This document shows positions 1,832-40,361 of a DNA stretch of 53,189 nt, piece after piece (position 1 is the first letter of the stretch; each line of letters opens with the position of its first letter). This stretch comes from a virus. The position numbers and the translations under genes are program-made. Under the pieces are notes generated by a model. It worked only from the letters and a program-made list of their open reading frames with translations, searched no databases and was not told the origin of the DNA. The stretch is from the IMG/VR virus record IMGVR_UViG_3300013099_000025, positions 1 through 53,189 of that record; one strand, written 5' to 3'.

Positions 1832-1850
1832 GGGAACATATAATTGTAGG
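1832..1850 (+). promoter_or_regulatory. Late promoter motif upstream of the amidase gene
   Basis: GGGAACATATAATTGTAGG, one of seven near-identical copies found in the window, each before a structural or lytic operon. It ends 44 bases before the ATG of the amidase gene. The conserved core is GGAACATATAATTGA. Assigned as the phage late promoter by repetition and position only. Confidence 0.75.
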
Positions 1851-1893
1851 GATTTATAATGAAATTAAACAATGAGATGACGAGGATTCCAAT

Positions 1894-2520
1894 ATGATTT
1901 ATGATTTTTTTAAAGATTGGTATGGTGCTATGAAATCTGATGGTAGAGATGAACCATATCCATTCACACCAGTAAAAAAATTAAGAAATATTAAAGTAGC
2001 CTTAGTGATTGGTCATAAGAAAACATCACAAGGAGCATATAATAGAAAACATGATATGTCAGAATATCGGTATAATGAAAAATTGATTTTAGAAATAGAA
2101 GATAATGTTCCAACGAATATTGATATTCATAAAGTATATCGTAGAACATATAATTCTTTACCAGATGATATTAATGAATTGAATCCAGATTTCATTATTT
2201 CATTTCATTGTAATGCTTTCAATGAACATGCATCTGGTACGGAAACATTATATTATCATAAATCTGAAAAAAGTAAAAAGATGGCTAAGATTATAAATGA
2301 TAGAATGGTTGGAATTTTAAGATTGAAAGATAGAGGAATCAAACCAAAAACATCGGAAGATCGTGGTGGTTATTTATTGAAGAATACACATGCTCCTTGT
2401 GTTATCATTGAACCATTTTTTATTGATAATAATAGTGATTTAGAAATAGCCACAATGAAAAATACTATATTTGTAGATATGTTTGTAACAACAATTATGA
2501 AAATTGCAGAGGATATTTAA
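1894..2520 (+). CDS. N-acetylmuramoyl-L-alanine amidase (endolysin)
   Basis: 208 residues with the layout of an Amidase_3 zinc amidase, which cuts the bond between N-acetylmuramic acid and L-alanine in peptidoglycan. The first zinc histidine is in ALVIGH (residue 41), the Glu follows in RYNEKL (about 62), the second His is in IISFHCNAF (about 110), and the catalytic Glu is in CVIIEPFFIDN (about 178). SGTETLYYH matches the conserved GxE segment after the second His. There is no signal peptide, so release would need a holin or it may be a virion-associated lysin. The ATG has GAGG eight bases upstream. It is the first gene after the late promoter at 1832 and leads a tail operon. Confidence 0.88.
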   Translation: MIYDFFKDWYGAMKSDGRDEPYPFTPVKKLRNIKVALVIGHKKTSQGAYNRKHDMSEYRYNEKLILEIEDNVPTNIDIHKVYRRTYNSLPDDINELNPDFIISFHCNAFNEHASGTETLYYHKSEKSKKMAKIINDRMVGILRLKDRGIKPKTSEDRGGYLLKNTHAPCVIIEPFFIDNNSDLEIATMKNTIFVDMFVTTIMKIAEDI

Positions 2521-2521
2521 A

Positions 2522-3376
2522 ATGGATAATTTGGTTGAATCGTTGTATTTTATAAATGCGGTTAGGTCAGAAGTTATCGATGAATTGAGTGAATCAATGA
2601 ACGATAACCAAATAAAATATATCACTGAAAATATGACTGATGGAGATATATTATCATTATCATTGACTGGTAAAGTAATACCTTCTAATGTTGACAATCA
2701 ATCATATGTTGATGGATTAATGGAAGGATTCGGTGAGATGTTTTTCGAATGTGATATGGATTTATTTATTCAATCTGATGATAATTCATTTATGACTTTG
2801 AATGAAGCTACTTTTAATAAAGATTCAACATATATTGATCCTAAAGACTCATATCATTATCAAGGATCTTTAAGATATTCTCCATCTGAGATTGAAGATG
2901 ATGACTCTGATTTTTATCAGGGAACTTTAAGAAAATCTTCTAAAAAACCTAATCCAAAATCAACCAAATCAGGATTCGATGATTCAAAACCACAGTTAAA
3001 AGATAAAGTAAAACATAATCCAACCAAATCAGGATTCGATGATCCGAAACCAAATAATAATCCTCCAACAAAACCAAAACCATCTTCTAATAAAATAGCA
3101 AATTCATCGTTTACTACAGCTAAAAATAATTTCATGTCATTCTTTTCTAAAAACAATGGAAAGAATTTAAAAATTGGATTGGCTATAGCTGCTGCTTCTG
3201 CTCTAGCTTATGGTGCATATAAATTATATAAAGATAAATATGGTGATAAAAATAAAGCTAAACAAGCACAAGTGAAAGAATTGAATAAAGCTAAATCAAT
3301 GGCTAATAAAACAACCGATCCAAATAAATTTAAACAGATGTTAGCAGATAAAATCTCTAAAATTAAACGAGGATAA
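2522..3376 (+). CDS. Single hydrophobic-segment paralog family, member 1
   Basis: 284 residues from the ATG at 2522 (AGAGG upstream; an earlier TTG in the same frame is less likely). Three parts are visible: an acidic helical N-terminal domain (about 1-110, ELSESMNDNQIKYITENMTDGD), a Pro/Lys/Asn-rich linker with TKSGFDD repeated twice (about 140-190), and a hydrophobic Ala/Gly-rich helix (about 217-235, IGLAIAAASALAYGAYK) followed by a basic tail ending SKIKRG. The proteins at 10446, 11550 and 12581 share this plan, although this copy lacks their ACxGKSG cysteine segment. Function is unknown; being in late tail operons suggests a virion or lysis-related membrane protein. Confidence 0.75.
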   Translation: MDNLVESLYFINAVRSEVIDELSESMNDNQIKYITENMTDGDILSLSLTGKVIPSNVDNQSYVDGLMEGFGEMFFECDMDLFIQSDDNSFMTLNEATFNKDSTYIDPKDSYHYQGSLRYSPSEIEDDDSDFYQGTLRKSSKKPNPKSTKSGFDDSKPQLKDKVKHNPTKSGFDDPKPNNNPPTKPKPSSNKIANSSFTTAKNNFMSFFSKNNGKNLKIGLAIAAASALAYGAYKLYKDKYGDKNKAKQAQVKELNKAKSMANKTTDPNKFKQMLADKISKIKRG

Positions 3377-3379
3377 AAG

Positions 3380-3745
3380 ATGAGAAAGAGATCAAATTTA
3401 TTCGAGGCATTTATAAAACATACGCAACAAGCTTCTGATATGGATTTATTTTTAAAACAATTTAACGATAAATATATCTTTCAAACATATGAAGAAATGG
3501 AAGATGGTTTATCTGTGTATGAATCTATACCTGACGATAAAGCATTTATCTTTCCATTTACAACGTGAATCGAAAGAGCATTTCATACGGTCGGTATGAA
3601 ATTTAATATTGATATGTATTTCTTTGATAAATTTGGAAGAAAAACTGGTGAAGCATTGAATGTTCCACCGGATAGAGAAGATATTTCACCAGACGATGAA
3701 GGTGTTCAGTATGTAGTTGAATGTCTCCCTAGAAAGGATTTATAA
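3380..3745 (+). pseudogene. DUF192-like gene interrupted by in-frame TGA
   Basis: The frame starts MRKRSNLFEAFIKH with GAGG upstream. It reaches a TGA at 3566-3568 after AFIFPFTT, then stays open in the same frame to TAA at 3743-3745 (IERAFHTVGMKFNIDMYFFD and so on). The two halves together look like the DUF192 fold, whose signature is a hydrophobic strand (FxFP), then FWMK or FHTxGM, then IDxxFFD. The TGA sits between two conserved strands, so the 62-residue product alone would be an incomplete domain. TGA is a normal stop in this genome. Options are a single-base CGA to TGA change (decay or sequencing error) or deliberate UGA readthrough. An ATG at 3596 could give a short C-terminal product. 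Confidence 0.65.
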
Positions 3746-3748
3746 ATT

Positions 3749-4513: not shown

Positions 4514-4522
4514 GAATTATAC

Positions 4523-6916: not shown

Positions 6917-7579
6917 ATGAGCAAAAATATTAAAAAAATTATTACCAAAGATTTCTATGGTGATAATTGTTTAGTCGATTCAGTTACGGCCTCGAAAGGA
7001 AAAGAAAGACATCCACAAGGTTGGGTAGAAGTATATGAAATTGATGAGAATGGTATTGAGAATTTACATTCAAAATCGAATCTAGTTGTATATCAAGGAA
7101 GAGAAACTATTTCACAAAGAATGTTTAATGTAGAAAATGTTAGCTGTCCTTCGACTAGAGATGATATTATCGCATGGGTCGGTGTTGGTTCTGGTGGAGT
7201 CAATGTTGGTGATCCATTCAATCCATCTCCTCCAGTTGCTACGGATACTGATTTAGCAGTTCCTGTTCAGATCAGTGCAATTGATCCGACATGTGCAGAT
7301 TTACGTGGAGGATTTTATTATAAAAAACCAATTGAATCTGTTGAATATGAACAAGATACATATAATAATAATTCATGGTTGATAGCTAAAACAACTTCAC
7401 GGATATCTCTCGCTGATTCAGATGGTGAACATATCAGTGAAGCTGGATTATATTCAAGTGCTGGTGGTCCAATTCCTAATTATGCTGGACCGTTTCATTT
7501 ATTTTCAAGAGTAACTTTTCCACCAGTAGTTAAAGTAAATACAAGACAGATTCTTTTTATTTGGTATTTATATTTCTAA
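6917..7579 (+). CDS. Putative virion (baseplate/neck) structural protein
   Basis: 220 residues when started at the ATG at 6917, which has GAGG 12 bases upstream; a TTG 18 bases earlier is a weaker choice. The protein is beta-rich: NLVVYQGRETISQRMFN, then WVGVGSGG, a Pro-rich loop (DPFNPSPP), and a C-terminal ISEAGLYSS ... HLFSRVTFPPVV ... FIWYLYF. This last pattern (sensitivity to 'xxEAGLY' followed by 'RVxFPxV') is common in phage appendage proteins that attach to fibres or the baseplate. It is the first gene of the sheath operon. No catalytic motif is seen. Confidence 0.6.
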   Translation: MSKNIKKIITKDFYGDNCLVDSVTASKGKERHPQGWVEVYEIDENGIENLHSKSNLVVYQGRETISQRMFNVENVSCPSTRDDIIAWVGVGSGGVNVGDPFNPSPPVATDTDLAVPVQISAIDPTCADLRGGFYYKKPIESVEYEQDTYNNNSWLIAKTTSRISLADSDGEHISEAGLYSSAGGPIPNYAGPFHLFSRVTFPPVVKVNTRQILFIWYLYF

Positions 7580-7623: not shown

Positions 7624-9618
7624 ATGGCTAATATTTCTCCGGGCGTATATACGAAAATTATCGATCTTTCGACATACGTTTCCGCTGTACCAGCTACCAC
7701 TGGTTTTATTTGTGCTCTTACTAAAAAAGGTAGAGACAATGAAGCTATCTTTGTTTCTTCACGAAATGATTTGATTCGTGAATGGGGTGAACCTTGTATT
7801 ACAGATTTCGGTAAGGAATATGGACAGGGTTTATATAATTCTTATAACTTTCTTGGCGAATCTGGTTCATTGTGGTTCATGCGTGTATTACCTACCGATG
7901 CATCATATTCGAATATTCGAATCGATGCTGTCTGGGATGGTATTGATACTACTGCTGACATTCAATTAACATACATATCTGGTTTAAACAGTATGGATGA
8001 AATTGAAACACAACTGACTCAAATTGGTGATACATATCCGATTTGTATTTTATATCCTATCGGTCGTGGTGATTATTATAATTTGATTTCTGTTAGATTG
8101 ACACGTCACGTCAATCCGATGTATGAAGGTGTTTATATTTTAGATGTTTATGAAAAACAGACAGATGGCGATGATGTTATTGTCGAATCTTTTACTATTT
8201 CTCTAAATATTGATGCAAGAGATCGTTCTGGTGATTCTATTTTTATCACAGATATTCTTGAAAAATATTCTAATATTCTTCGTAGTCATCATTTACTTCC
8301 TAGTGGTGCAACTTCTCCCGGCTATGATTTAGTAGTTAAAAATTATGATAATAATATTGGCTATACATCCGTAGATCTAACACCAGGTTCTGCTTCAATC
8401 GAAGATGTTAAACAAGATTTTCTTGATTGGTCTAATGCAACTGAAACTGGTAATGCAATATATTCAATCACAGCTATCGATGAACGTGGATATCGTTTAT
8501 ATGGTTGGCTTGGTGCATCTACTGGTGTTGATGGTGAATCTATCAATGTTTTCAATGATCGTGATTTAGATACTGCATCACAAGGATGGATTAGTGATGA
8601 ACGTGATACCGATAAAGATGACATTATTGATTGGTGGAGTATTGATTATTTCTCAACTGATGCCAGTGTCGAATACATCATCAAGAAAGATTTATCTGAT
8701 GTAACTGAACCATTCTTAACTGGTGCGGCTGTTTTGCGAAAAGGATCTGATGGTGAAATATATGATTCTAATCATAAAGTTGATCCTCTTGTCTGTGAGA
8801 ATTTATTAATCAGGGGTTATTCTGGTGTAACAGACATTCAAGTACAGGATAGAGAAAGAATTTTCTTCACAATGGTTTTTGATTGTGGTTATCCAACAGC
8901 AGTCAAAACAGCTATTGTTGGTTTGGTTGAGCTTCGTCGTGATTGCGTAGCCATGCTTGATAATGGTGATAATGCTAATTATGGTATGGCTATTTCGAAA
9001 CGGAATAGTGATCATACTTATAATACTTATTTAGCTGCTATTTATGAAGGATATAATAAAGTGTATGATGGTTTCACTGGTGCCAATATTTGGGTATCAC
9101 CATTATTTCATTTATCGTATCTCGCCCCCCGAAATGATAATGTAGCTGAAATTTGGTATGCGATTGCGGGATTTCAACGAGGAGCTATTAATAATATCGT
9201 TGAATTACGATACAATCCTAATTTAGGTGATCGTGATCAGATGTATCTTCGTCAGTTGAATCCAATTGTTAAATTTAATATTGGTTATAGTGTATGGGGA
9301 CAGTTAACTACGCAAGCCAAACCATCTGCTTTGCAAGATTTGAATATCGTTCGTTTGGTATTATATTGTAAAGAAGCTTTGGAAAGGTATGCACGTTTCT
9401 ATATTTTCGAACAGAATGACAATATGACATGGGGATTGGTTGCTGGTGATGTTAATGAATTTCTTGAAGAAGTTGCAGCTAAACGTGGATTGTATTCTTA
9501 TACAGTCGATGTTGGTGCGACTGATTATGAAAGAAAAAGTAAACGATTCCATATTAATGTTACATTAGAACCAACTCGTACTGTAGAGAAAATTGAATTA
9601 AACTTTTTTATTAAATAA
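7624..9618 (+). CDS. Contractile tail sheath protein (T4 gp18-like)
   Basis: 664 residues. The N-terminus MANISPGVYTKIIDLS followed by AVPATTGFICALTKKGRDNEAIFVSS is the typical opening of T4-type sheath proteins (PGVYxxExDxS, then a beta strand GxxxGP/K-like). The C-terminal domain has the conserved core VWGQLTTQAKPSALQDLNIVRL, with the helix FYIFEQN before the last strands. The length is close to T4 gp18. In the virion, copies form the contractile outer tube driving DNA delivery. An ATG with GGAG 8-9 bases upstream starts it. It is followed by a 14-bp hairpin and then the tube gene, the usual sheath-tube order. Confidence is high on order and sequence style. Confidence 0.9.
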   Translation: MANISPGVYTKIIDLSTYVSAVPATTGFICALTKKGRDNEAIFVSSRNDLIREWGEPCITDFGKEYGQGLYNSYNFLGESGSLWFMRVLPTDASYSNIRIDAVWDGIDTTADIQLTYISGLNSMDEIETQLTQIGDTYPICILYPIGRGDYYNLISVRLTRHVNPMYEGVYILDVYEKQTDGDDVIVESFTISLNIDARDRSGDSIFITDILEKYSNILRSHHLLPSGATSPGYDLVVKNYDNNIGYTSVDLTPGSASIEDVKQDFLDWSNATETGNAIYSITAIDERGYRLYGWLGASTGVDGESINVFNDRDLDTASQGWISDERDTDKDDIIDWWSIDYFSTDASVEYIIKKDLSDVTEPFLTGAAVLRKGSDGEIYDSNHKVDPLVCENLLIRGYSGVTDIQVQDRERIFFTMVFDCGYPTAVKTAIVGLVELRRDCVAMLDNGDNANYGMAISKRNSDHTYNTYLAAIYEGYNKVYDGFTGANIWVSPLFHLSYLAPRNDNVAEIWYAIAGFQRGAINNIVELRYNPNLGDRDQMYLRQLNPIVKFNIGYSVWGQLTTQAKPSALQDLNIVRLVLYCKEALERYARFYIFEQNDNMTWGLVAGDVNEFLEEVAAKRGLYSYTVDVGATDYERKSKRFHINVTLEPTRTVEKIELNFFIK

Positions 9619-10445: not shown

Positions 10446-11528
10446 ATGTTTATTAATGAAAGTATTGATACAAATGATAGTGCTATTTTCATGGGATTCA
10501 TGCGCCAGTCGTTGATTGAATCTCTGAAGGATAATCATGCTGAAGATTCAATGATCAAATATGTTGAAGAATCTGCTAGTGATTCTCAAGTATTGTCATT
10601 GGCTATGTATGGTAAATCTTGTCCACAAGATAATCAAGTATTTGCTGAAACTTTTCTTATGTCTCAATTAAAAGATTATATGATTGAGAATGTAAATGAA
10701 TTTGATTTCTCTGCTGATTATTCTGTTGTTAATTTTATGCAGGAAATTGGTGGTTTGTCTTTAGTTGATTCTGATTCTTTGACAATTATTTCAGAAGGTA
10801 TTAGCAATGGTATTGATGCTAGTATTAAGAATTATGAAAAGAATAAAGGAAAACAAGTAAATTTAAAAAATCTTAAATCTGGTTTTAAAAATCTTGTTGA
10901 TAAAAATAATCCTACTAATAAAAAAATTGACAATTTTGGAACAAAATTAGGAAATAAGGTTATTCCAGATAAGGCACCATCTAACGTTAAAGCGCACAAT
11001 CCAACTTTAGATGCTGTGAACGATGCAGAGGCTGGAAGCAACACATCTGATATGGGCGGTGTTGGTAAAGAAATTGCAAAAAATGAAGAAGCTGGTGGTA
11101 ATAGATCTGATATGGGTGGTGTTGGTAAAGAAATTGCAAAAAATGAAGAAGCTGGTGGTAATATATTTGATAAGATTAAAGGTTTTGGTGATAACATTGG
11201 TAAAGCATGGTCAACATTTACTGGTTTTGTTAATAAATATTCTGGTAATAATGCTAAAGCCATTGGTATCACTGCTCTTGTCGCCGCTTCTGCATTTATC
11301 GCATATAAGACATACAAGAATTATTTCTCAAAAGCTGCTAAAGCTTGTGCAGGTAAATCTGGTGCAGAGAAAGCTGCTTGTATGGCTAAAGCTAAACAGG
11401 GTGCCGTAAAATCACAAATTGCAGCATATAAGAAATCCATGTCTGCTTGTAAATCTACAAATAATATCGCTGCTTGTAAGAAGAAATATCAATCAAAAAT
11501 TTCTAGTTTGCAAGCTAAATTAAATTAA
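10446..11528 (+). CDS. Single hydrophobic-segment paralog family, member 2
   Basis: 360 residues, the longest family member. The N-terminal domain (1-130) starts MFINESIDTNDSAIF and has FMRQSLIES and YVEESASDSQVLSLAMYGKSCP, clearly homologous to the gene at 11550. The linker (about 135-245) holds two exact copies of a 20-residue unit (SDMGGVGKEIAKNEEAGGN). A hydrophobic helix follows (about 275-290, ITALVAASAFIAYKTYKNYF), then the family signature FSKAAKACAGKSGAEKAACM and a basic, Cys-containing tail. No signal peptide. The cysteines could form disulfides in the virion or membrane. Expression should be late, from 6862. Function unknown; candidates are an internal virion protein ejected with DNA or a baseplate/membrane adaptor. 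Confidence 0.75.
   Translation: MFINESIDTNDSAIFMGFMRQSLIESLKDNHAEDSMIKYVEESASDSQVLSLAMYGKSCPQDNQVFAETFLMSQLKDYMIENVNEFDFSADYSVVNFMQEIGGLSLVDSDSLTIISEGISNGIDASIKNYEKNKGKQVNLKNLKSGFKNLVDKNNPTNKKIDNFGTKLGNKVIPDKAPSNVKAHNPTLDAVNDAEAGSNTSDMGGVGKEIAKNEEAGGNRSDMGGVGKEIAKNEEAGGNIFDKIKGFGDNIGKAWSTFTGFVNKYSGNNAKAIGITALVAASAFIAYKTYKNYFSKAAKACAGKSGAEKAACMAKAKQGAVKSQIAAYKKSMSACKSTNNIAACKKKYQSKISSLQAKLN
11045..11163 (+). repeat. 60-bp tandem duplication inside member 2
   Basis: Two consecutive 60-bp units encoding SDMGGVGKEIAKNEEAGGN, differing at one silent base (C/T at the GGC/GGT codon near 11056). The near-identity implies a recent duplication or ongoing repeat-length change in the linker of the paralog encoded at 10446. 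Confidence 0.85.
11316..11399 (+). repeat. 84-bp segment identical to 12297-12380
   Basis: The DNA encoding KNYFSKAAKACAGKSGAEKA and the following residues is identical at every base in members 2 and 3 of the paralog family, although the surrounding sequence, including synonymous positions, has diverged. This points to gene conversion or a recent copying event limited to this segment. Confidence 0.85.
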
Positions 11529-11549
11529 ATTATAACGAGGAAAATTAAA

Positions 11550-12500
11550 ATGTTTATTAATGAATCTACAAATATTGAAGAAAGTGCTATCTTTTTTGAA
11601 TTTATGCGTGAAGCTTTGATTGAACAGGTTGGTGATAATGAAGAAATGGTTTCTTTCATCGAATCTGCTTCTGATACTGATGTTATTTCATATGCGGTAA
11701 CTGGAAAGGCTGCTCCAGCTGATTTGGATTCTGCTCTCTATGAAACTGCTCTTATGAGCATTATCAAAGAAAATGTTATTCTTGCTCCTGAACTATTTAC
11801 CGAAAGTGAAGATTATACTGCAATGGATTTCGTCAATGAAATCGGTACATTGAGCATGATTACTTCTAAGGATATTTTACAAGAAGCGATCAAAGGTGTT
11901 CGGACAGATAAATTGGCTAAATCAAATATCGACGATGCAAATCTCAGCGGTACTCGTAGAAATTTGAAGAATTGGGTAGATAATAAAGTCCATGCTACGA
12001 ATCAAGGTGCCGGTGAATTTGATGGAACAAAATCACAAATGGATAAAGTAGCCGCTGAACAAAAAGCAAATAATACTGCTAAACAATACGGTGCCGGTGA
12101 ATTTGATGGAACAAAATCACAAATGGATAAAGTAGCTGGATCTGGTAGTTTTATGAATTGGTTTAACAAAGTGAAAAACAATGTTACCGATTCAGCTGCA
12201 TGGGGAAAGATTACTGAATTCACATCTAAGCATGGGACGAAAATTGGTGTAGCCGCTCTTGTAGCCGCTGCTAGTTTCATTGCATATAAAGCATATAAGA
12301 ATTATTTCTCAAAAGCTGCTAAAGCTTGTGCAGGTAAATCTGGTGCAGAGAAAGCTGCTTGTATGGCTAAAGCTAAACAGAGTGCTACTAGAGCTCGCCT
12401 TACTGCTTTGAAAAAAGGTGCTTCTATGGCTAAGAATTCTACTGCTCCACAGAAAGCAAGAGCAGCTATTCAAGCTAAAATAGCTAGTATGCGTGGCTAA
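11550..12500 (+). CDS. Single hydrophobic-segment paralog family, member 3
   Basis: 316 residues. N-terminal domain MFINESTNIEESAIFFEFMREALIE, with SFIESASDTDVISYAVTGKAAP, parallels member 2. The linker holds two copies of GAGEFDGTKSQMDKVA (about residues 153-196). The hydrophobic helix (about 231-248, IGVAALVAAASFIAYKAYK) is followed by NYFSKAAKACAGKSGAEKAACM, identical to member 2 at the DNA level. The tail is basic and ends IQAKIASMRG. GAGG lies 12 bases before the ATG. It is 21 bases after member 2, so the two are co-transcribed. A strong terminator follows. Each family member has its own different duplicated linker unit. Confidence 0.75.
   Translation: MFINESTNIEESAIFFEFMREALIEQVGDNEEMVSFIESASDTDVISYAVTGKAAPADLDSALYETALMSIIKENVILAPELFTESEDYTAMDFVNEIGTLSMITSKDILQEAIKGVRTDKLAKSNIDDANLSGTRRNLKNWVDNKVHATNQGAGEFDGTKSQMDKVAAEQKANNTAKQYGAGEFDGTKSQMDKVAGSGSFMNWFNKVKNNVTDSAAWGKITEFTSKHGTKIGVAALVAAASFIAYKAYKNYFSKAAKACAGKSGAEKAACMAKAKQSATRARLTALKKGASMAKNSTAPQKARAAIQAKIASMRG
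12006..12136 (+). repeat. Two 47-bp direct repeats inside member 3
   Basis: Copies at 12006-12052 and 12090-12136 (period 84 bases) encode GAGEFDGTKSQMDKVA. They are identical over 47 bases, separated by a short unrelated spacer (AEQKANNTAKQY). The unit is unrelated in sequence to the repeat in member 2, so the linkers duplicated independently. Confidence 0.85.
12297..12380 (+). repeat. 84-bp segment identical to 11316-11399
   Basis: Second copy of the exact repeat shared by members 2 and 3. Member 4 (12581-13123) has the same peptide motif but with many synonymous and some non-synonymous differences, so it did not take part in the recent exchange. Confidence 0.85.
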
Positions 12501-12522
12501 TAAGAATTTAATTTCTTAATCT

Positions 12523-12560
12523 AAGGGGAGAGAGATTTTATATCTCTCTCCCCTTTTTTT
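12523..12560 (+). terminator. Strong intrinsic terminator after member 3
   Basis: A 14-bp perfect GC-containing stem (AAGGGGAGAGAGAT, 5-base loop, exact complement) followed by a run of T. This is the clearest rho-independent terminator in the window and ends the operon that starts at 6862, although member 4 still lies downstream with no separate promoter motif, so some readthrough is expected. Confidence 0.9.
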
Positions 12561-12580
12561 CAATTGAAAGGAATTTGAAG

Positions 12581-13123
12581 ATGTCGATACTTATTGAAAC
12601 TATTCAAGATTTAAACGAAGATCAAAATCAATTAAGTGAAATTGTTTTGATTTCTGAAATTGGTTCTTCACTTATTTTCCTGAAAAGTAATCAGCGTGAT
12701 TGTATTGATTTATTTGGAGCGAAAGTAACAAGTGAATTGATTGAAGAATCTGTTTTAGATTATAAAGAAATCATGCAAGAAGGATTTTCCTCAAATGCTC
12801 CAGAAAAAAGTCCTCCTATTGATTTCAAAGCAATTTGGGAAACAATTAAAGATAAAGGTGATGTTATTGGTGGTGCGGCTTTGGCGGCTTTGGTCATCGC
12901 TGGATCATATAAAATATATAAAAATTATTTCTCGAAAGCTGCCAAATCATGCAAAGGTAAATCTGGTGAAGAGAAAACTGCTTGTATGACAAACTATAGA
13001 GAAAACGCTTATAAACTACAACAAGATGTTTTGAAGAAAAGTTTAGATATGTCAAACAAATCAAAAGATCCAAGCGTATTTAAAAAGAAGATTGAAATTC
13101 AAATTAGAAAATTGAAAAAATAG
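12581..13123 (+). CDS. Single hydrophobic-segment paralog family, member 4 (short)
   Basis: 180 residues from the ATG at 12581 (AAAGGAATTTGAAG before it; a TTG two codons earlier is less likely). It keeps the family core: a shorter acidic N-terminal domain (MSILIETIQDLNEDQNQ), a hydrophobic helix (about 94-112, GGAALAALVIAGSYKIYKNYF), SKAAKSCKGKSGEEKTACM and a basic tail ending IQIRKLKK. It has almost no linker and no repeat. Placed after the terminator at 12523 and before the promoter at 13143, it may be expressed at a lower level by readthrough, or from a start I did not recognise. Confidence 0.72.
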   Translation: MSILIETIQDLNEDQNQLSEIVLISEIGSSLIFLKSNQRDCIDLFGAKVTSELIEESVLDYKEIMQEGFSSNAPEKSPPIDFKAIWETIKDKGDVIGGAALAALVIAGSYKIYKNYFSKAAKSCKGKSGEEKTACMTNYRENAYKLQQDVLKKSLDMSNKSKDPSVFKKKIEIQIRKLKK

Positions 13124-13245: not shown

Positions 13246-14031
13246 ATGTTTACAACTTTCAATGCAATCCTGCCAACGTATGAAGTGGTGACACCTCAGA
13301 CTAACCAATCATTTCTTTTGAGAAGTATGACAGTCGGTGACGAAGAAAAAATGAAAGGTAGTTTGATGAACGAATCTAAAATTCTAACACATCTGAACAA
13401 ATGTTTGTATGATGCAATTTCTGCTAAACCAGAAGGATATACATTAAAAAATTTCTTAAAAACCGTCACACTTAAAGATCGTGATGCACTATTATATGGT
13501 TTGTATCATATCACATATGAAGAAATTAGAAATTATTCTGTTTCATGTGGGAGTTGTAGTAAATCTCATGATGTAACCATTAATGCATCTGATACATTCT
13601 CAATGGTTCCATACCCAGGAGAAGAAAAAGCAATTTTAGATAAAATTGTTCCAGTTAAATTGAAAATATTGGAAGGAGTCGTCTTTAACATCAAACAGCC
13701 GACACTAGATGATGAAAATACGATCAATCGTAGATTCTCTAATAGTGCAAGAGGCACGAATGATATGGTTATGGAATGTTTGATTGTTGATAGTTTCGAA
13801 CATACTCCAGAAGCTGCTACATCTCCAATAATCTTCAATGAATTTGACGATATCCTTTCAGCGTATGAATCACTCCCCGCTAAAGATAAAAAAGTAATTC
13901 TTGATGCATATAATGAAAATTTTGGTAAATATAAAATTTCTTTAAAAATGCGAGTCACATGTCCTTCATGTGGGAAAGTGGAGGTGATAGATATCGACTT
14001 AGTCGATAATTTCTTTCGAGCAATGTATTAG
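13246..14031 (+). CDS. Baseplate hub assembly protein (T4 gp26-like)
   Basis: 261 residues. It looks like the T4 gp26 family (PF12322 style): an opening strand-rich stretch LPTYEVVTPQTNQSFLLRSMTVGDEEKM, then YHITYEEIRNYSVSCGSCSKSHDVTI. A first CxxC pair (CGSC) near residue 105 and a second (CPSCGK) near residue 246 likely bind one zinc. QPTLDDENTINRR in the middle is a family-type phrase. In T4 the protein helps build the central hub. The gene ends with three successive in-frame stops (TAG TAG TGA). The next reading frame overlaps its last bases, see 14087-14215. It has AAAGGAG 10-13 bases before the ATG and heads the gp26-gp25-gp6 operon. Confidence 0.8.
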   Translation: MFTTFNAILPTYEVVTPQTNQSFLLRSMTVGDEEKMKGSLMNESKILTHLNKCLYDAISAKPEGYTLKNFLKTVTLKDRDALLYGLYHITYEEIRNYSVSCGSCSKSHDVTINASDTFSMVPYPGEEKAILDKIVPVKLKILEGVVFNIKQPTLDDENTINRRFSNSARGTNDMVMECLIVDSFEHTPEAATSPIIFNEFDDILSAYESLPAKDKKVILDAYNENFGKYKISLKMRVTCPSCGKVEVIDIDLVDNFFRAMY

Positions 14032-27031: not shown

Positions 27032-27050
27032 CTTCAATTATATGTTCCTA
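27032..27050 (-). promoter_or_regulatory. Late promoter motif overlapping the terminase stop
   Basis: Read on the minus strand this is TAGGAACATATAATTGAAG. The first three bases are the TAG stop codon of the terminase gene. It lies 30 bases before the HExxH gene and should drive that gene, the tape measure and the 812-residue protein. Confidence 0.78.
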
Positions 27051-28709
27051 GTTTAAAAATTCAAACGTGTCGATATTGGAGGTATTTGAATGTTTATTTA
27101 AGTATTCGTGAATGTTTTGTGAAACTAATTTTTCTGTTGATTGTGGGCTTTCTAATCCAGTATATACATCATCATTCATTCCCATTATTGCAGCGAATTC
27201 ATCATTAGCTTGAGGGTCAACATCTAACATCAATGGTGGATTATATTTTCTTACATAACAACCAAATGCCAATGACATCGCAATATCATCATTACAATTT
27301 GTATCAGCTTCCACTTTACCATTTTTCTTTTCAACCAATCCAATTAATTCCATAGCCATTCTCTTAGATTTAACAATGGATGGATCTTCAGTTACCATTG
27401 AATACAATGCATCAATCATTAACGGTCTTGTTTTCGATGATGTCGTCAAACCAGCTTTCATTACTCCTCCTGCTGTCGTTTCCTTGTATACTCTAATTGA
27501 ATGAGGAGATCTTTCCATGAATTCAACTATCTGTGTTCCATATGAATTATTCTCTATTACAATTGGACCAGATGCGAAAACTGTTGCTACATATAAAACA
27601 ACTTTACCAAAATCTGTGACAGGACATTTCCCTTGATATTCCCATACCAATTCAAATGTTATGTAATCATAAACGGATATAGCTGAATAATCTGTCCCGT
27701 GTTCAGAGGCAGTATCCACACATATCATATAAGGTTTACCTTTTATATATCTCTTAAATTCGTAAACAGTTCCATTGAACATTTTCCTTTCATTGTATTT
27801 TATATCTTTCACTTGTTCTTGAAGCAATGCACATATTTTATCATCGAAAAATGCACCAGATGAAGGTAAGAAAACTAATTCTAATTCCTGTTTGATTTTC
27901 CTTTCATCATTATCAAACAACATGCATTGTTGTTTAAACCAATCTGGATCAGATGCCAACTCTTTAATATCACGCCAATGAATAACCATTGGTGTAAGTA
28001 AACTATTTCCAGAAATTGCATTAGTATATTGTCTATAATAAAATGCTCCAACACCAGATGTTTTATTTGGTGTGGATAGAATAATTGTCCCATAAGGAAC
28101 ACCAGCTTTTTTCGCATGTTTCTGATTTGTCGATAAAGCTGGAACCATTGATGTCCATGCATCATCGATATGTTCAATAAATGCTGCTTCATCGATCACT
28201 AGAAATGTTATGGCTTTACCACGTAATGTTTTACCGGGAGCTTTTGGATTAACTGTAGCTGCATAACATTTAGAACCATTTGTCAAAATGAAAGATTGTT
28301 CAGATCTTTTAGCGAATCCTGCTTGATTTGAATTTCCACCGGATGGTTTAATCCAAGTTGGTAATTTATCAATCATACCAGAAATAGTTCTTGCGAATGT
28401 AGTTGCTTCTGGTCCATCTTTCGAAACAATTCCTACGACAACATTGGGAAAGAAAACTAATAACCACGTACAATATGCTTGTAATGTAGTTGATATTCCT
28501 ACTTGGCGAGATTTCAAAACAATAGCATGTTTCTTATCTTCTAAAATATCAATCAATGTTTTCTGCAATTCATACATATCGAATTTAACATCACCGCCTG
28601 GTAATTCTAACAATATATATTTTGCACAAAAATAATGAAATGATTTCTTACATTTTAGAAATTCTTCTAAATATTTTTGTTTTTTAGATATTGCTTTTTG
28701 TTTAGCCAT
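27048..28709 (-). CDS. terL: Terminase large subunit (T4 gp17-like)
   Basis: 553 residues. The ATPase half has an altered Walker A (KSRQVGIST, residues 66-74), as in T4 gp17 and many TerL proteins, and Walker B with catalytic Glu LVIDEAAF (about 171-178), then LSTPNKTSGVGAFYY as coupling motif. The nuclease half begins with MICVDTASEHGTDYSAI (about 328), where VDTASEHGxDYS supplies the first metal-binding Asp of the RNase H-like fold, and a later DCNDDIAMSLAFG gives the final acidic pair. The enzyme packages DNA into the head and cuts concatemers. The ATG overlaps no ribosome site but follows the upstream stop by one base, so it is probably coupled. Confidence 0.93.
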   Translation of the reverse strand: MAKQKAISKKQKYLEEFLKCKKSFHYFCAKYILLELPGGDVKFDMYELQKTLIDILEDKKHAIVLKSRQVGISTTLQAYCTWLLVFFPNVVVGIVSKDGPEATTFARTISGMIDKLPTWIKPSGGNSNQAGFAKRSEQSFILTNGSKCYAATVNPKAPGKTLRGKAITFLVIDEAAFIEHIDDAWTSMVPALSTNQKHAKKAGVPYGTIILSTPNKTSGVGAFYYRQYTNAISGNSLLTPMVIHWRDIKELASDPDWFKQQCMLFDNDERKIKQELELVFLPSSGAFFDDKICALLQEQVKDIKYNERKMFNGTVYEFKRYIKGKPYMICVDTASEHGTDYSAISVYDYITFELVWEYQGKCPVTDFGKVVLYVATVFASGPIVIENNSYGTQIVEFMERSPHSIRVYKETTAGGVMKAGLTTSSKTRPLMIDALYSMVTEDPSIVKSKRMAMELIGLVEKKNGKVEADTNCNDDIAMSLAFGCYVRKYNPPLMLDVDPQANDEFAAIMGMNDDVYTGLESPQSTEKLVSQNIHEYLNKHSNTSNIDTFEFLN

Positions 28710-28710
28710 T

Positions 28711-30099
28711 TTATAATATTTTTCCCCATGTCGGACGAACTAATCTAAGTTTGGCTGTAGATTTCCATCCAGCATTGTCTCTTCGTAATATAATATTAGA
28801 GGAAAATAAAATATATTTTCCGTTAATATCATCATAATCACTCGTCTTAGATTCAAATTTTACTGGCTGACCAATATTCATAAATAAATGTAAAGGGAAA
28901 AGTCTTTCCACATTTACACTTATTTGAGACATATTAAATGTTGATTTATTCAATTTAGCAGATAACCAATATTCGTCTTGGATAGCTCCCATCTCTCCAG
29001 ATAATTCTTTCTGGGGATGATTATCAATATCTTTATTATGGCAAATGTGGTCTGATATATATATATTTCTCTTTCTTATACTTTCAGATATATATGGATC
29101 ACTTTCAGAATTAAAATAGATATTTTTTGATATATAATTTTCCATATTCACATTATCGATTCTGTGAAATTTATCTACTGGTTTTTGGATATAATGATTA
29201 TCAACACCAAGAGCAGAAAATGCTGTATTTGCCATATATTTTGTACTGATATCAGAGTAAATAAAATAATCTTTAAAATTTCCTTCGTCGAAATTGTTTA
29301 TATATTTTGCATTGTCTGCATCATCATTAGCTAAATGAATTATATTGAAGGTTGCTTTATCATGTAATAATCTATCAGTTATATTCATCAAATTATAATT
29401 AATTACTTTATCTCCTAAATTTTCGTCTGGTATTCCTATCGAAGCATAAAATATTCCGAAACCATCATATAAACCAAATTCATTCAATAAATAATCACAA
29501 TGATTTTTCAATACCGTCGGAGGTAAAATAATTTGATCGATATTTATTGTATTCGCTCCTCTATAATCATATTTCAATTGAAATGATGTATCTATTCCTT
29601 CTTTATCTATTTCATCTTTAGCAAATAATAATAAATCAATCATTATCTGTTGAATATGTTGATTTTTATATATGCGATTTATATTAAATGTCATCATTCT
29701 ATAAGCATGTTCAGGAATAGCTTTTATTGTATATGGTCTTTGATCATGCAATGAATCAGTTTTACCAGATCCTAATAATTGATTCGATATTGGAATATCG
29801 TAATCACCAGATAAAAAAAGTAAATCGACACTAAAAACATCTACTTTATCTACACCATTTTCTTCTTTTAGATGGATAGATAATTGTATTATTTCATGCC
29901 CAAGAATTTTATTTTGAATCATTTCAATCGGTTTAATATTCATTTTAAACATAAATATTGGATATGAACCGTTGAATGATGAAACGATTTGCATACTTTG
30001 AACATCTGATTCATAATCATTTTCACCGATAATAACTTCTATTGTAAAACCAGTATCAATCTGTAATAACTTTTTGCCTCCGTCTATAGGTATAGCCAT
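28711..30099 (-). CDS. Baseplate hub protein (gp27/gpD-like), tentative
   Basis: 462 residues, beta-rich. The start (LLQIDTGFTIEVIIGENDYESDVQSMQIVSSFNGSYPIFMFKMNI) and the phrase 'LGHEIIQLSIHLKEENG' resemble the first barrel domain of phage hub proteins such as T4 gp27 and P2 gpD. Around 125-165 come the helices HAYRMMTFNINRIYKNQHIQQIMIDLL, typical of the embedded alpha domain, and the C-terminal strand region ends SNIILRRDNAGWKSTAKLRLVRPTW. In the virion it would form the trimeric hub. GAGG precedes the ATG. A late promoter lies upstream at 30201-30218. The assignment rests on fold-level resemblance. Confidence 0.6.
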   Translation of the reverse strand: MAIPIDGGKKLLQIDTGFTIEVIIGENDYESDVQSMQIVSSFNGSYPIFMFKMNIKPIEMIQNKILGHEIIQLSIHLKEENGVDKVDVFSVDLLFLSGDYDIPISNQLLGSGKTDSLHDQRPYTIKAIPEHAYRMMTFNINRIYKNQHIQQIMIDLLLFAKDEIDKEGIDTSFQLKYDYRGANTINIDQIILPPTVLKNHCDYLLNEFGLYDGFGIFYASIGIPDENLGDKVINYNLMNITDRLLHDKATFNIIHLANDDADNAKYINNFDEGNFKDYFIYSDISTKYMANTAFSALGVDNHYIQKPVDKFHRIDNVNMENYISKNIYFNSESDPYISESIRKRNIYISDHICHNKDIDNHPQKELSGEMGAIQDEYWLSAKLNKSTFNMSQISVNVERLFPLHLFMNIGQPVKFESKTSDYDDINGKYILFSSNIILRRDNAGWKSTAKLRLVRPTWGKIL

Positions 30100-30167: not shown

Positions 30168-30581
30168 ATGAAAAAAATAATTATTTTTCTGATCGCTTTC
30201 TCTCAATTATATGTTCCCATTATCACATCTAATTCTTATGCAAAACATTTACATAAAGAAAGAGTATACCAAGAATATTGGGCAGAGAAGAATAATGCTG
30301 TTGCGATTGAATATATCTTACCAGATAGAGCGAGAGTGGATATTGTTACAGAAGAATATGCGATAGAAGTTGACTTTGCGTATAAATGGGCAGAGGCAGT
30401 TGGTCAATCATTATATTATGCGGAAATGATGAAGTTAAAACCTGGCATCGTATTGATCGTTGAAGATATAAAAAAATTCAAATTGGTTTTCAGATTGAAA
30501 GTATTGACTGAAAAATATAATATTCGATTGTGGATAATCACACCGGATGATTTGGATTTTAGTGTTATGGAAAATAAATAA
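30168..30581 (+). CDS. Exported PD-(D/E)XK nuclease-like protein
   Basis: 137 residues. A clear signal peptide opens it (MKKIIIFLIAFSQLYVPIITSNSYA, predicted cut after the Ala at about 25, giving KHLHK). The mature part has RARVDIVTEEYAIEVDFAYKWAEAVGQSLYYAE, which matches the core of PD-(D/E)XK nuclease-like folds (Asp in a first strand, E-x-D in the next, then an alpha helix with EAxGQ). The Lys normally paired with the last acidic residue appears as Tyr-Lys two residues on, so activity is uncertain. Export to the envelope of a phage enzyme that could cut DNA suggests blocking superinfection. It stands alone on the plus strand between minus operons and has its own promoter and terminator. 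Confidence 0.65.
   Translation: MKKIIIFLIAFSQLYVPIITSNSYAKHLHKERVYQEYWAEKNNAVAIEYILPDRARVDIVTEEYAIEVDFAYKWAEAVGQSLYYAEMMKLKPGIVLIVEDIKKFKLVFRLKVLTEKYNIRLWIITPDDLDFSVMENK
30201..30218 (-). promoter_or_regulatory. Late promoter motif inside the signal-peptide coding sequence
   Basis: Leftward GGGAACATATAATTGAGA, within codons for SQLYVP of the exported protein on the other strand. It lies about 100 bases before the hub-like gene and is the only motif copy ahead of hub and terminase genes. Confidence 0.75.
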
Positions 30582-33096: not shown

Positions 33097-33252
33097 TTAA
33101 TCACATTTCTCACATTTATTACACCGTGGTTTAGATGCAGTATAAATCCCACAATATTCACAAATATATTTTTGATCTCCAGGATTCATCTTTTCCCAAT
33201 CTGTCATAATATCAAACAAACCAACTTCTTCAAATAAATTATCTCTTGTCAT
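33097..33252 (-). CDS. Small zinc-ribbon protein (51 residues)
   Basis: A 51-residue frame, MTRDNLFEEVGLFDIMTDWEKMNPGDQKYICEYCGIYTASKPRCNKCEKCD. It has two paired CxxC motifs (CEYC, then CNKCEKC), a clear zinc-ribbon arrangement. The ATG at 33252 overlaps the end of the nucleotidyltransferase gene (stop at 33239) by 14 bases. It is small enough to be missed by ordinary gene finding. Such ribbons often bind DNA, RNA or an RNA polymerase partner; which one cannot be told here. Confidence 0.7.
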   Translation of the reverse strand: MTRDNLFEEVGLFDIMTDWEKMNPGDQKYICEYCGIYTASKPRCNKCEKCD

Positions 33253-34174
33253 GATAATGTCCTATTATTTCCATTGTTAAATTATTTAATTTTTTAAAAT
33301 CAGAATATTTTGGAAGATCTGTTTTCTCTAAAGCTATTTTAATATTCTCCTCAAGATCATCAAACATTCCGAGAATTTCGTTTAGATTATAATCGCCTTT
33401 CTTGATAGATAATAACAAATCTTTATCTTTCAATGGGAAAATTAAATCACACGTTTCAAGTAATTCAATTCCTTCCAATGTTAATCTGATGAGATGTGAA
33501 GCGAACTTCAAATCGTACCCATGTTTTCTGATTAATTCTTTTCGATGCGACATATTTGAAAATCTTTTATTTACAATTGATAGTGCTTTTTTATTCAACA
33601 CTCCCAAAGGTATTTTAATATCGCCAACTCTCAGATGTTCTTTATCGAAATATTTACTGATGTCTGATTTCAGATGAAGTAATGTATCAGTCGGATCAGC
33701 TTTTTCAAGAATACCTTTTATAAATTCAAATTCTTTATGGTTTCCTAATTTAACAATCATTTTCTTTTTCTGTGAATATGCATATCCGAGAAATCTGTGA
33801 TACAAACCCTTATGTAAAAAATCATGTCTATGTTCTAATAATTTAATCCCCATAGGAGAATTTATTTTTAACTGTTTCTCATCAACGAATAATTGTTCTA
33901 TAATCGTTGGATTACAATCAGAAGCCAATTTAACAAATCTCTTAATATCATAAAATCTTCTATCTATCGCATCGGCATTATTCTTACCATTTTCATCTTT
34001 AGATTTGAAGGATAAATCAATTTCTTTAACTTCTTTCAATCCAAAATAATAATCCAATGGAGCAACAAATACACCAGAATAATCTAAATCTGATTCTGGT
34101 GTATTTGTCCCATATAAATGTGAACCAACTAAATATTCTAGCAAAATATTATTTTGGATGTCCTCGAATTTCAT
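33239..34174 (-). CDS. Nucleotidyltransferase (RlaP/PF10127-type)
   Basis: 311 residues. The start NILLEYLVGSHLYGTNTPESDLDYSGVFVAP holds the polymerase-beta-superfamily signature: GS at residues 17-18 followed by D-x-D in SDLDYSGV. FKSKDENGKNNADAIDRRFYDIKRFVKLASDCNPTIIEQLF follows, the helix and 'NP' motif of this predicted nucleotidyltransferase family, common in jumbo phages. The enzymes transfer a nucleotide to RNA, protein or small molecules; the target is unknown here, though RNA repair is a common suggestion. The C-terminal half includes KALSIVNKRFSNMSHRKELIRKHGYDLKFASHLIRLTLEGIELL, which also belongs to the family. Confidence 0.8.
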   Translation of the reverse strand: MKFEDIQNNILLEYLVGSHLYGTNTPESDLDYSGVFVAPLDYYFGLKEVKEIDLSFKSKDENGKNNADAIDRRFYDIKRFVKLASDCNPTIIEQLFVDEKQLKINSPMGIKLLEHRHDFLHKGLYHRFLGYAYSQKKKMIVKLGNHKEFEFIKGILEKADPTDTLLHLKSDISKYFDKEHLRVGDIKIPLGVLNKKALSIVNKRFSNMSHRKELIRKHGYDLKFASHLIRLTLEGIELLETCDLIFPLKDKDLLLSIKKGDYNLNEILGMFDDLEENIKIALEKTDLPKYSDFKKLNNLTMEIIGHYHDKR

Positions 34175-34343: not shown

Positions 34344-34393
34344 AGTGAAAAACCTCCACGCAAAATGATCATTTTGCGTGGAGGTTTTTCACT
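34344..34393. terminator. 50-base perfect palindrome, bidirectional terminator
   Basis: Two exact 25-base arms with no spacer. The inner part (CCTCCACGCAAAATGA and complement) is the stem and the flanking AAAAA/TTTTT gives a T-run on both strands. It lies between the end of the 56-residue gene and the start of the 59-residue gene. Long perfect arms such as this also appear at 9631 and 14201, so hairpin ends are a general feature. Confidence 0.8.
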
Positions 34394-34564
34394 TTATAGT
34401 GCTTCTTTCAACACTTGTGTACGGTAAACCAATCCTTTCTTTCTCAGAAAACGACTGAATTGACGGATAGATGGTTCGAACGAAGCTGCTTTACACAAAT
34501 TCTTAAATTCATCTGCTGTTGCGAATCTCTCTCTGAGAGTTAGAACTTTTTTATCTTTAGCCAT
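34394..34564 (-). CDS. Small basic protein (56 residues)
   Basis: A 56-residue frame, MAKDKKVLTLRERFATADEFKNLCKAASFEPSIRQFSRFLRKKGLVYRTQVLKEAL, with AGGAG before the ATG. It is basic and helical, and ends right at the terminator hairpin. The pattern FEPSIRQFSRFLRKKGLVYR may be a small HTH or DNA-binding motif. It is not closely similar to any family I recognise. It is the last gene before the palindrome. Confidence 0.65.
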   Translation of the reverse strand: MAKDKKVLTLRERFATADEFKNLCKAASFEPSIRQFSRFLRKKGLVYRTQVLKEAL

Positions 34565-37294: not shown

Positions 37295-37296
37295 AA

Positions 37297-37818: not shown

Positions 37819-37828
37819 TTACAGATTC

Positions 37829-38375: not shown

Positions 38376-38395
38376 ACATTATCTCCTTAACGTAA

Positions 38396-38434: not shown

Positions 38435-38437
38435 AAT

Positions 38438-38764
38438 TTACCACCACAACCAATTAGCATCATTCCGATGTCGAATAAATGGCTGATCTAAATCATCAGC
38501 TATGATTTTTTTCAAAATAACTTTATTCTTACTACGAAACTCTCTATTAAGTGATTGACGAAAATGTTTTGGTGCATTGTTACGATATTTATCATTATCA
38601 GAATGATAAACGTTGATTAATTTCTTATGTTCTTTCCCACCAAATTCTTCGCATTGCAAATATTGAAACCAACCATATGTTAAATTATTTTTGTTATAAT
38701 CTGTCCCTGATTCATCATAAATCCACTCAGGACGTTCATTCTTTCTTCTGATCGTTTTTGACAT
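38438..38764 (-). CDS. Basic hypothetical protein
   Basis: 108 residues, MSKTIRRKNERPEWIYDESGTDYNKNNLTYGWFQYLQCEEFGGKEHKKLINVYHSDND. Very basic and Asn/Trp-rich with an end at NDANWLWW. It resembles short phage proteins of the 'xKTIRRKxE.PxW' kind found near HD-domain genes, function unknown. The ribosome site AGGAG is next to the right arm of the hairpin at 38774-38804, so its translation could be controlled by that hairpin. Confidence 0.6.
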   Translation of the reverse strand: MSKTIRRKNERPEWIYDESGTDYNKNNLTYGWFQYLQCEEFGGKEHKKLINVYHSDNDKYRNNAPKHFRQSLNREFRSKNKVILKKIIADDLDQPFIRHRNDANWLWW

Positions 38765-38773
38765 TTCATTTCT

Positions 38774-38804
38774 CCTATGTAAATTGTTAGAACACTTACA
38801 TAGG
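38774..38804 (-). promoter_or_regulatory. Hairpin near the ribosome site of the 108-residue gene
   Basis: On the minus strand CCTATGTAA and TTACATAGG form a 9-bp stem with a 13-base loop. The right arm ends at the AGG of the gene's AGGAG site, so the folded form would hide part of the site. It begins at the stop codon of the leader ORF at 38796-38822. Confidence 0.5.
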
Positions 38805-38822
38805 ATGAAACCATAGATACAT
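38796..38822 (-). CDS. Candidate 8-residue leader peptide
   Basis: MYLWFHPM then TAA, read from ATG at 38822. An AGGAGG ribosome site lies six bases upstream, within the last codons and stop of the HD gene. The stop codon overlaps the left arm of the hairpin (38774-38804) whose right arm blocks the next gene's ribosome site. A ribosome on the leader could therefore open the hairpin. This is a reading from sequence layout only. Confidence 0.4.
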   Translation of the reverse strand: MYLWFHPM

Positions 38823-38826
38823 GGTA

Positions 38827-39396
38827 CTACCTCCTTTTATTCTCAAATATAACTTTCGTTTTGATCTCTTTCTTATCAAACCATTCATCTAATTTCGATT
38901 CATCGTATTTTTGGATCATAGATTTTGCCAATTTATATAAATTTTTATCTCCTTCTTTCAATACTTCCATTAATTTCTTTTTCTCTTTCATATAAACAAC
39001 AGCAAAATTTTTATCATAACTGGTGATTGATTTAGTATTATCAATCAAGTCAGCTAATTTAATTGTTTTCGCTTCCGGTGATGCATTAGCTGTATGATTC
39101 AAATCAATTTCTTTTCTGACTTTTCTATTACCTTGTGATAGTATAGATATATCAGTTAAATCTGATACCATTCTCATCACACGATTGCCGAACAAACTTT
39201 TAATTCGTCCAATTGAAACATCTGTATCTTCAACGACATCATGTAAAATTGCCGCTATGTACATTTCAATATCATCTGAAACAGATGAAACTAAACCAGC
39301 AACTGCAAATGGATGAACGATATATGGTTCATTCGTATATTTTCTAAATTGTCCAGCGTGTGCATCTCTAGCTATTCTAATTGCTTTTCTAAACAT
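38827..39396 (-). CDS. Small alarmone hydrolase-like HD protein (MESH1/SpoT-HD type)
   Basis: 189 residues from the ATG at 39396 (GAGG six bases upstream; a TTG 69 bases earlier extends it without improving it). It matches the (p)ppGpp hydrolase HD fold: IARDAHAGQFRKYTNEPYIVHPFAVAGL, then AAILHDVVEDTDVSIGRIKSLFG with HD and ED, then NHTANASPEAKTIKLADLIDNTKSI, equal to the KLAD-x(3)-N end of MESH1. It could hydrolyse (p)ppGpp and so switch off the host stringent response, or act on another nucleotide. It lies in a small-gene operon and overlaps the leader-peptide site at its end. The family assignment is firm, the substrate is not. Confidence 0.8.
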   Translation of the reverse strand: MFRKAIRIARDAHAGQFRKYTNEPYIVHPFAVAGLVSSVSDDIEMYIAAILHDVVEDTDVSIGRIKSLFGNRVMRMVSDLTDISILSQGNRKVRKEIDLNHTANASPEAKTIKLADLIDNTKSITSYDKNFAVVYMKEKKKLMEVLKEGDKNLYKLAKSMIQKYDESKLDEWFDKKEIKTKVIFENKRR

Positions 39397-39480
39397 TGGG
39401 ATCCTCATATTATAAAAAATTGAATAAATGCTTCTATCGCTATTTGATATATATAAAGATTCCAATGAATTAAAAAAGAA

Positions 39481-40272
39481 TTATTCGTGTTTTATAAATG
39501 TTCCACACGAACGACAGAATTTAGCATTTGATTTACTTTTAGTTCCGCATGTTTGACATTCGATTTTTTGTTTAATTGTTCTGGTAGTTTTTATTTTTCT
39601 ATTATTGACATCACCTTTCAGATATATGTGTAAATTCTTTTCATCTCCCCAATTAAATTTATCTTCTATCTGGTCAAAGGATTGTTCTACTTCTTTTCCT
39701 TTAACTGTGATACCAGATTCATTTAACATAGATTGATTACTTACAGGCATTTCTAAACTACATGATGTTGTGATAGATGATAAAGAATTATCAAATACCG
39801 TATAATCTCCAACAGATGAATACCAAAATGGTTGTGGTTGATATGGTTGGTGAGGATGGATTGTTTTTTCGTAAGGTTGGCGGTAATAATGATGGTGATG
39901 GATATCTTTGACTGGAAATTCAATCTTTTGTACGAATTGATAAGTGATAACTATCAAACCATCTTCTGGTTTATCGCCTCTATGGTTTGATATTTGTTCT
40001 GTTTTCTCTATGAATCTGAAACTATTTTTAACATCATTATCGTTTAAAAATCCTTTCAAATTCACATTTTCTTTCGCATCTAAAATAATTGATGAATTAT
40101 TTAAAACATCTTCATCATCAATTGTAATAGAAATTTTACATTTTTCAGTATGTAGATTTCTAAGATAAATTGAATAATCAGAACCATATGGGAGATAAAC
40201 AGTATCACCATTTTCTCTGATCACTTTCCCATCAATCTTAATACACGCAACTAATTTTTCACTATACATCAT
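39481..40272 (-). CDS. Late protein with beta domain and C-terminal zinc ribbon
   Basis: 263 residues. The N-terminal beta-rich part (LVACIKIDGKVIRENGDTVYLPYGSDYSIYLRNLHTEKCKISITIDDEDVLN, and FRFIEKTEQISNHRGDKPEDGLIVITYQF) belongs to a phage family with the IDGKVxRExxxxVxLPxGSxYSI and FRFIEKTxxISxHRGDxPEDG phrases, usually described as virion structural or decorating. The C-terminus (ECQTCGTKSKSNAKFCRSCGTFIKH) is a four-cysteine zinc ribbon. A His/Tyr/Pro-rich linker (HHHHYYRQPYEK) joins them. The late promoter at 40343-40361, 71 bases upstream, marks it as late even though it lies among early-type small genes. Confidence 0.7.
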   Translation of the reverse strand: MMYSEKLVACIKIDGKVIRENGDTVYLPYGSDYSIYLRNLHTEKCKISITIDDEDVLNNSSIILDAKENVNLKGFLNDNDVKNSFRFIEKTEQISNHRGDKPEDGLIVITYQFVQKIEFPVKDIHHHHYYRQPYEKTIHPHQPYQPQPFWYSSVGDYTVFDNSLSSITTSCSLEMPVSNQSMLNESGITVKGKEVEQSFDQIEDKFNWGDEKNLHIYLKGDVNNRKIKTTRTIKQKIECQTCGTKSKSNAKFCRSCGTFIKHE

Positions 40273-40342
40273 GATATACCCCTTTAAGAATCACCGACTA
40301 AAATTCTATATTTTGTTTAAAGTCGATCTGAGGTTAAATTAC

Positions 40343-40361
40343 TATCACTTATATGTTCCTA
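40343..40361 (-). promoter_or_regulatory. Late promoter motif upstream of zinc-ribbon beta protein
   Basis: Read leftward, TAGGAACATATAAGTGATA. The first 12 bases match the motif, with one change in the last block. It lies 71 bases before the ATG at 40272. The only motif copy in the 30.6-53 kb early-type region. Confidence 0.65.

Follow-up and report, generated by a model that had tools for sequence, protein, structure and literature searches.

We examined a 53,189-nucleotide (nt) stretch of DNA from an uncultured phage (IMG/VR record IMGVR_UViG_3300013099_000025; this whole stretch is hereafter the window) for a short recurrent element, RGGAACATATWA, which a first-pass annotation had proposed as a late promoter of the phage's own RNA polymerase. 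The element occurs exactly seven times in the 53 kb, and all seven copies are oriented toward a downstream gene start. On the plus strand, P1 (GGGAACATATAATTG; 1832-1850, predicted start 1846) faces an amidase gene (1894-2520; Amidase_3), P2 (6862-6880, predicted start 6876) faces a conserved gene (6917-7579) followed by the tail sheath gene (7624-9618), P3 (13143-13161, predicted start 13157) faces a T4-type baseplate gene (13246-14031; T4_baseplate domain) and P4 (30118-30136, predicted start 30132) faces a gene for a putative exported protein (30168-30581). On the minus strand, P5 (27031-27049, predicted start 27035) faces a conserved gene (26076-27002) and then one for a 1515-amino-acid tape-measure-like protein (21528-26075). 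P6 (30200-30218, predicted start 30204) sits within the plus-strand open reading frame (ORF) at 30168-30581, upstream of the minus-strand gene for a conserved protein (28711-30099) and then a T4-like terminase gene (27048-28709). P7, a divergent copy (AGGAACATATAAGTG; 40342-40360, minus strand, predicted start 40346), faces a zinc-ribbon protein gene (39481-40272). The first-pass annotation had the plus-strand coordinates right, but the minus-strand copies each lie one base lower than it gave. It had also put every copy before a structural or lytic operon; this holds for six, which mark the endolysin, sheath, baseplate, tape-measure, terminase and exported-protein operons, but the zinc-ribbon gene behind P7 heads a nucleotide-metabolism operon.

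A near-identical motif precedes gene starts

The copies are far more alike than chance allows. Six differ from the 19-mer GGGAACATATAATTGAAGG at no more than 3 positions, for which dinucleotide shuffles gave a mean of 0.02, and the strict pattern [AG]GGAACATAT[AT]A has seven matches in the window, all at the seven sites. On a matrix built from these sites, members score at least 25.3 bits, the value of the divergent P7, against 16.6 bits for the best non-member in the window. A gene start lies 10-130 nt downstream of every copy; about 7% of strand positions lie that far upstream of a same-strand start, so seven of seven would arise by chance with a probability of about 8e-9. Measured from the 3' end of the motif, the distance to the start codon is 29-101 nt, where 30-105 bases before the ATG had been claimed. 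Nor is the motif equally common inside genes: GAACATA....TGA occurs at a noncoding:coding ratio of 5:5 in the window, a 20-fold enrichment given that 4.7% of its DNA is noncoding, and at 9:2, 3:1 and 12:1 in relatives (70-163-fold).

The invariant part of the motif is G-AACA-N6-TG-A, and AACA-N6-TG is present at all seven sites. This corresponds to the experimentally mapped late promoter of the non-virion RNA polymerase (nvRNAP) of Bacillus phage AR9, AACA-(6N)-T[A/G], at which transcription starts on the last base (PMC5312081).

As the first-pass annotation had noted, no separate -35 block accompanies the motif. Across 31 sites in four contigs, the information lies in a core from -13 to +2, outside which we found only weak preferences for T at -30 to -28 and A at -19. 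This bears on the possibility that the sites are host sigma70-type promoters, with a TATAAT inside the motif acting as an ordinary -10 element for the host RNA polymerase. Exact TATAAT is present in five of the seven window copies, and in some copies a sequence 15-17 bases upstream agrees with TTGACA at 4-5 of 6 positions, but no -35 element is consistent and in relatives TATAAT gives way to TAATAT, TATAAA, TAATAA or TATTAT with GAACA and TGA unchanged. Together with the lack of strand bias described below, this makes a sigma70-type promoter very unlikely.

The motif is conserved across an uncultured lineage

Relatives of the window were found through alignments of the terminase and the RNA polymerase beta subunit, and include contigs of 102, 224, 244 and 277 kb; a single-protein search with beta recovered none of them, whereas a two-row alignment did. 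The window (W), G003, G004 and G005 form a close clade, and G007, G021, G025 and G029 its sister clade; G006 has hardly any noncoding sequence and was uninformative. Unbiased expectation-maximization (EM) searches of upstream regions ranked the element first among motifs in the window (GGGAACATATAATTGA), G003 (GGAACATAttatTGA), G005 (AGAACATataatTGaA), G007 (TAGAACAAAATAaAAA) and G021 (ttAGAACAaAt.aAAA) and recovered a GAACAAA core in G025; in G029 and G017 a tRNA T-loop came out on top instead. With GAACA masked, EM turned up no convincing second motif of the early, AT-rich kind. Among the 31 close-clade sites, which were chosen by GAACAT-N5-TG, the free bases A-6, A-3 and A+2 are nearly fixed, and positions -5, -4 and -2 are mixed A/T.

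Conservation follows orthologous genes. Of the seven sites in the window, six are preserved with 0-1 mismatch; about 35 other genes were compared, and not one of them had a full motif match upstream. P1 is conserved before its orthologs in G003 and G005, P3 and P4 each in G003, G004 and G005, and P5 in G003 and G004 and also at position 19722 of G005; P6 is kept with 1 mismatch in G003 and G004, where it likewise lies within an opposing ORF. When 2.9 million viral contigs were scanned blind with a 16-mer, 32 matches came back; 3 were in the clade, and 2 of these 3 lay upstream of the ortholog of the gene at 6917, so that P2 is conserved before the same gene in L014 and L034.

The element is also strongly oriented: GAACA[AT]A upstream of genes was found 100 times in sense and 14 times in antisense (p=3.5e-17), whereas TATAAT (72:89) and TTGACA (6:9) show no strand bias. 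The T4-type late element TATAAATA, at 21:13, is not strand-biased either. Because relatives encode a Gp23-type capsid, and a T4-like terminase and T4_baseplate domain occur as well, we considered T4-type late promoters served by host polymerase with a gp55-like sigma factor, but TATAAATA is neither consistently enriched nor contained in the motif, and this origin of the sites is extremely improbable.

In the sister clade the element takes the form GAACA-WAWWAW-AAA. Promoter variants track the polymerase tree, with the TG type in W, G003 and G005 and the AA type in the sister clade. The start dinucleotide has apparently switched from TG to AA in G007, G021, G025 and G029, or else the spacer has gone from 6 to 5 with TA.

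The phage encodes an AR9-type non-virion RNA polymerase

The first-pass annotation had credited the phage with its own RNA polymerase, and the window does encode one, a multi-subunit beta/beta' enzyme of the AR9 non-virion type, on the minus strand. Beta is a single 1024-amino-acid polypeptide with Rpb2 domains (43786-46860). Beta' comes in two pieces: an N-terminal part with Rpb1 domains 1 and 2 (49791-51404), which carries the catalytic NADFDGD at residue 401 and then an intein N-half, and a C-terminal part with Rpb1 domain 5 (46882-48567), which begins with an intein C-half and resumes at SMAVYLP. Beta matches the AR9 nvRNAP subunit with an E value of 1.7e-49 versus 2.7e-18 for that of the AR9 virion RNA polymerase (vRNAP), and the beta' N-terminal part does so with 1.4e-35 versus 1.4e-13; the same comparison for the C-terminal part does not discriminate the two types. 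In a beta tree, the window subunit groups with the nvRNAP beta of AR9 and phiR1-37 with moderate support (81/70), and the family stands apart from Escherichia coli.

Beta' is thus split directly after NADFDGD by an apparent split intein, joining NADFDGD-SMAVYLP, as a 'fractured gene'. Between its pieces lies a DUF7487/DUF559 endonuclease-like ORF (48649-49776, minus strand), and in the relatives G003 and G2 beta' is unbroken at the intein position.

Contigs that span both regions (G2, G021, G025 and G029) encode two polymerases, clearly separate in the beta tree; the beta' N-terminal part of the second set is nearer to that of the AR9 vRNAP (1.7e-38) than to that of the nvRNAP (1.8e-24). The sites might then be early promoters read by this virion-type enzyme. 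However, the motif precedes structural and lytic genes and resembles the AR9 nvRNAP promoter, whereas the known promoters of vRNAPs are AT-rich, for example AAATATATATTAT-6N-G (PMC5312081). Promoter variants also track the nvRNAP tree, and together these points make a virion-type reader unlikely. No copy of the motif occurs in the polymerase cluster (43786-51404) or in the genes upstream of it, which suggests that transcription of the polymerase genes comes earlier and depends on a different enzyme, probably the virion-type polymerase that relatives encode as their second set.

Relatives carry a predicted gp226-like specificity subunit

The AR9 nvRNAP, together with its subunit gp226, reads its promoter in the template strand (PMC9209446). 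Searching with a profile built from gp226 homologs identified a 480-amino-acid protein in G021, G025 and G029, and a gp226-like protein was found in the motif-clade contig G031 (E 8.9e-134 to the family profile) and about 30 relatives. Profile-profile comparison with gp226 gave E values of 8.9e-5, 3.9e-6 and 1.8e-6 with 3, 8 and 29 sequences, always over the same collinear stretch, which is collinear with the promoter-reading region. In the reciprocal search, the best AR9 match of the family profile was the gp226 ORF (E 0.013). A sequence search of the family against the Protein Data Bank (PDB) gave nothing relevant, and only profile-profile and structure comparison matched. The AlphaFold2 model of an independent family member (mean predicted local distance difference test score, pLDDT, 74) has no good PDB matches other than AR9 gp226 (4.3e-6, 4.2e-5) and phiKZ gp68 (7.5e-4); for the G031 protein model (pLDDT 79) the top match is AR9 gp226 (E 1.8e-7), and the next, unrelated, scores 0.27. 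A separate candidate, G003_4717_6072, scored weakly as gp226-like and was rejected as a member of a separate conserved family resembling a type II topoisomerase subunit.

Of the AR9 gp226 positions reported to contact the promoter, those of W208, Y210, Y246 and Y263 are conserved across the family, in 27-29 of 29 homologs. The side chain of V206, which excludes thymine in AR9 gp226, where promoter reading depends on uracil at -11/-10 of the template strand, has no counterpart: none of the 29 homologs has valine there (Y in 18, F in 7, S in 2 and A in 2). With the uracil-sensing valine absent from the subunit, the promoters may work in ordinary thymine DNA. Neither dUTPase nor ThyX was found in the relatives searched, and four have a ThyA-like domain, a pattern that does not decide between uracil and thymine.

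A subunit of this kind in the clade also bears on another reading, in which the motif is not itself the promoter but binds a regulator or acts as an RNA element close to gene starts, a view that draws on initiation at the sites being predicted from sequence. As the element is orientation-specific, has spacing like that of transcription start sites, matches a known promoter and comes with a cognate specificity subunit, we consider this alternative highly improbable.

Proposed mode of transcription

We consider it highly likely that the seven copies are AR9-type late promoters for the multi-subunit, non-virion-type RNA polymerase that the phage itself encodes. The idea of a phage-specific promoter, put forward in the first-pass annotation, gains support from the AR9 match, ortholog conservation, strand bias and the gp226-like subunit in relatives, from which we infer it. 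By homology with AR9, the gp226-like subunit, encoded outside the fragment, would bind the beta/beta' core encoded at 43786-51404, and this holoenzyme, rather than the vRNAP, would read the template-strand complement (TTGT) of AACA at -11 to -8. Transcription would start on the G of TG, six bases downstream of AACA. Additional conserved bases (G-12, TA at -7/-6, A-3 and A+2) make the signal longer than that of AR9. Virion and lysis operons would be switched on once the polymerase is made.

Several points weigh against this interpretation. Start positions come from sequence, and the late class from gene content. The short AR9 consensus holds only about 11 bits and could overlap with the motif by chance, at an estimated 1% or less. 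In G003, P7 is conserved only weakly, at a shifted position and with 2 mismatches; in G031, 4 of the 9 matches to the motif fall within genes; and at -1/+1 the sister clade shows AA in place of T[A/G], unless its spacer is 5. The EM procedure failed to recover AR9's own known AACA motif, from which it follows that its sensitivity to weak motifs is limited and that the family motif is the stronger one. The gp226-like subunit lies neither in the window nor in the G003 and G005 fragments and is linked to them through G031; whole-protein comparison with gp226 gives TM-scores of only about 0.4 and domain placement differs, meaning that domains match but not the whole arrangement.

AR9-type promoters would here serve phages whose beta gene, and usually also beta' gene, is undivided. 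Somewhat tentatively, the AACA/gp226 module may be ancestral to phage nvRNAPs, working with undivided beta and beta' on thymine (or otherwise modified) DNA, with AR9's uracil dependence arising later and the TG/AA switch following the polymerase. The predicted promoters can be read off the sequence throughout an entire uncultured lineage. For its deep-branching polymerases, both a promoter and a sigma-like subunit can now be predicted, which makes them testable in vitro, and the origin of AR9's template-strand, uracil-dependent promoter reading becomes a testable evolutionary question.

Other features of the window and its relatives

A FolE2-type GTP cyclohydrolase gene (42938-43789, minus strand) lies beside the polymerase, as in 11 of 13 contigs; six relatives also have QueC and G021 has a radical SAM gene, which together suggest a preQ0 route and possibly 7-deazaguanine-modified DNA. 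ThiF/E1-like proteins (52206-53018, minus strand; 87335-90972 in G021, there with a JAB-like protein) are conserved beside the nvRNAP cluster. Elsewhere, the window holds an RlaP-like nucleotidyltransferase of an RNA-repair family (33239-34174, minus strand) and a perfect 25-nt inverted repeat with zero spacer (34344-34393) adjoining a small ORF (34394-34564). Several copies of a paralogous protein family are also present (among them 2522-3376 and 10446-13123, plus strand), and the family is expanded in relatives to 36 members in 11 contigs.

Comparison with known systems

The AR9 late promoter is the closest known counterpart. Both systems have AACA at -11 to -8, a six-base spacer, T at -1 and a purine at +1, with no sequence-specific -35 element; the same upstream filter applied to AR9 gave 75 sites in which A is favoured at -3, as it is here. 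Both pair a multi-subunit nvRNAP with a gp226-type subunit. The window signal is longer and stronger (G-12, T-7 A-6, A-3 and TGA), the window phage has an undivided beta, and its gp226-like family has Y, F, S or A in place of the deoxyuridine-sensing V206. The window phage and its relatives are uncultured and not close to AR9.

The phiKZ nvRNAP late promoter reads T-3 A T G+1 (PMC7598289). Common to the two systems are a phage nvRNAP, a G+1 start, here predicted, and a subunit, gp68, structurally related to the family protein described here. The window sites, however, read ATTG or AGTG at -3 to +1 and not TATG, and the phiKZ promoter has no equivalent of their strong upstream AACA block.

The mReC group comprises metagenomic jumbo phages that encode beta and beta' and a T4-type Gp23 capsid (Weinheimer & Aylward 2020, PMC7481178). 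No mReC promoters are described in PMC7481178 or in the later literature we searched, and PMC7481178 reports no specificity subunit. The window beta' differs in being additionally interrupted by a split intein. One source metagenome (3300017989) is common to mReC and the relatives here, the window likewise encodes beta and beta', relative contigs reach 277 kb, and a PF07068 Gp23-type capsid is present in 5 relative contigs, including G031. Very probably, these relatives are the mReC lineage.

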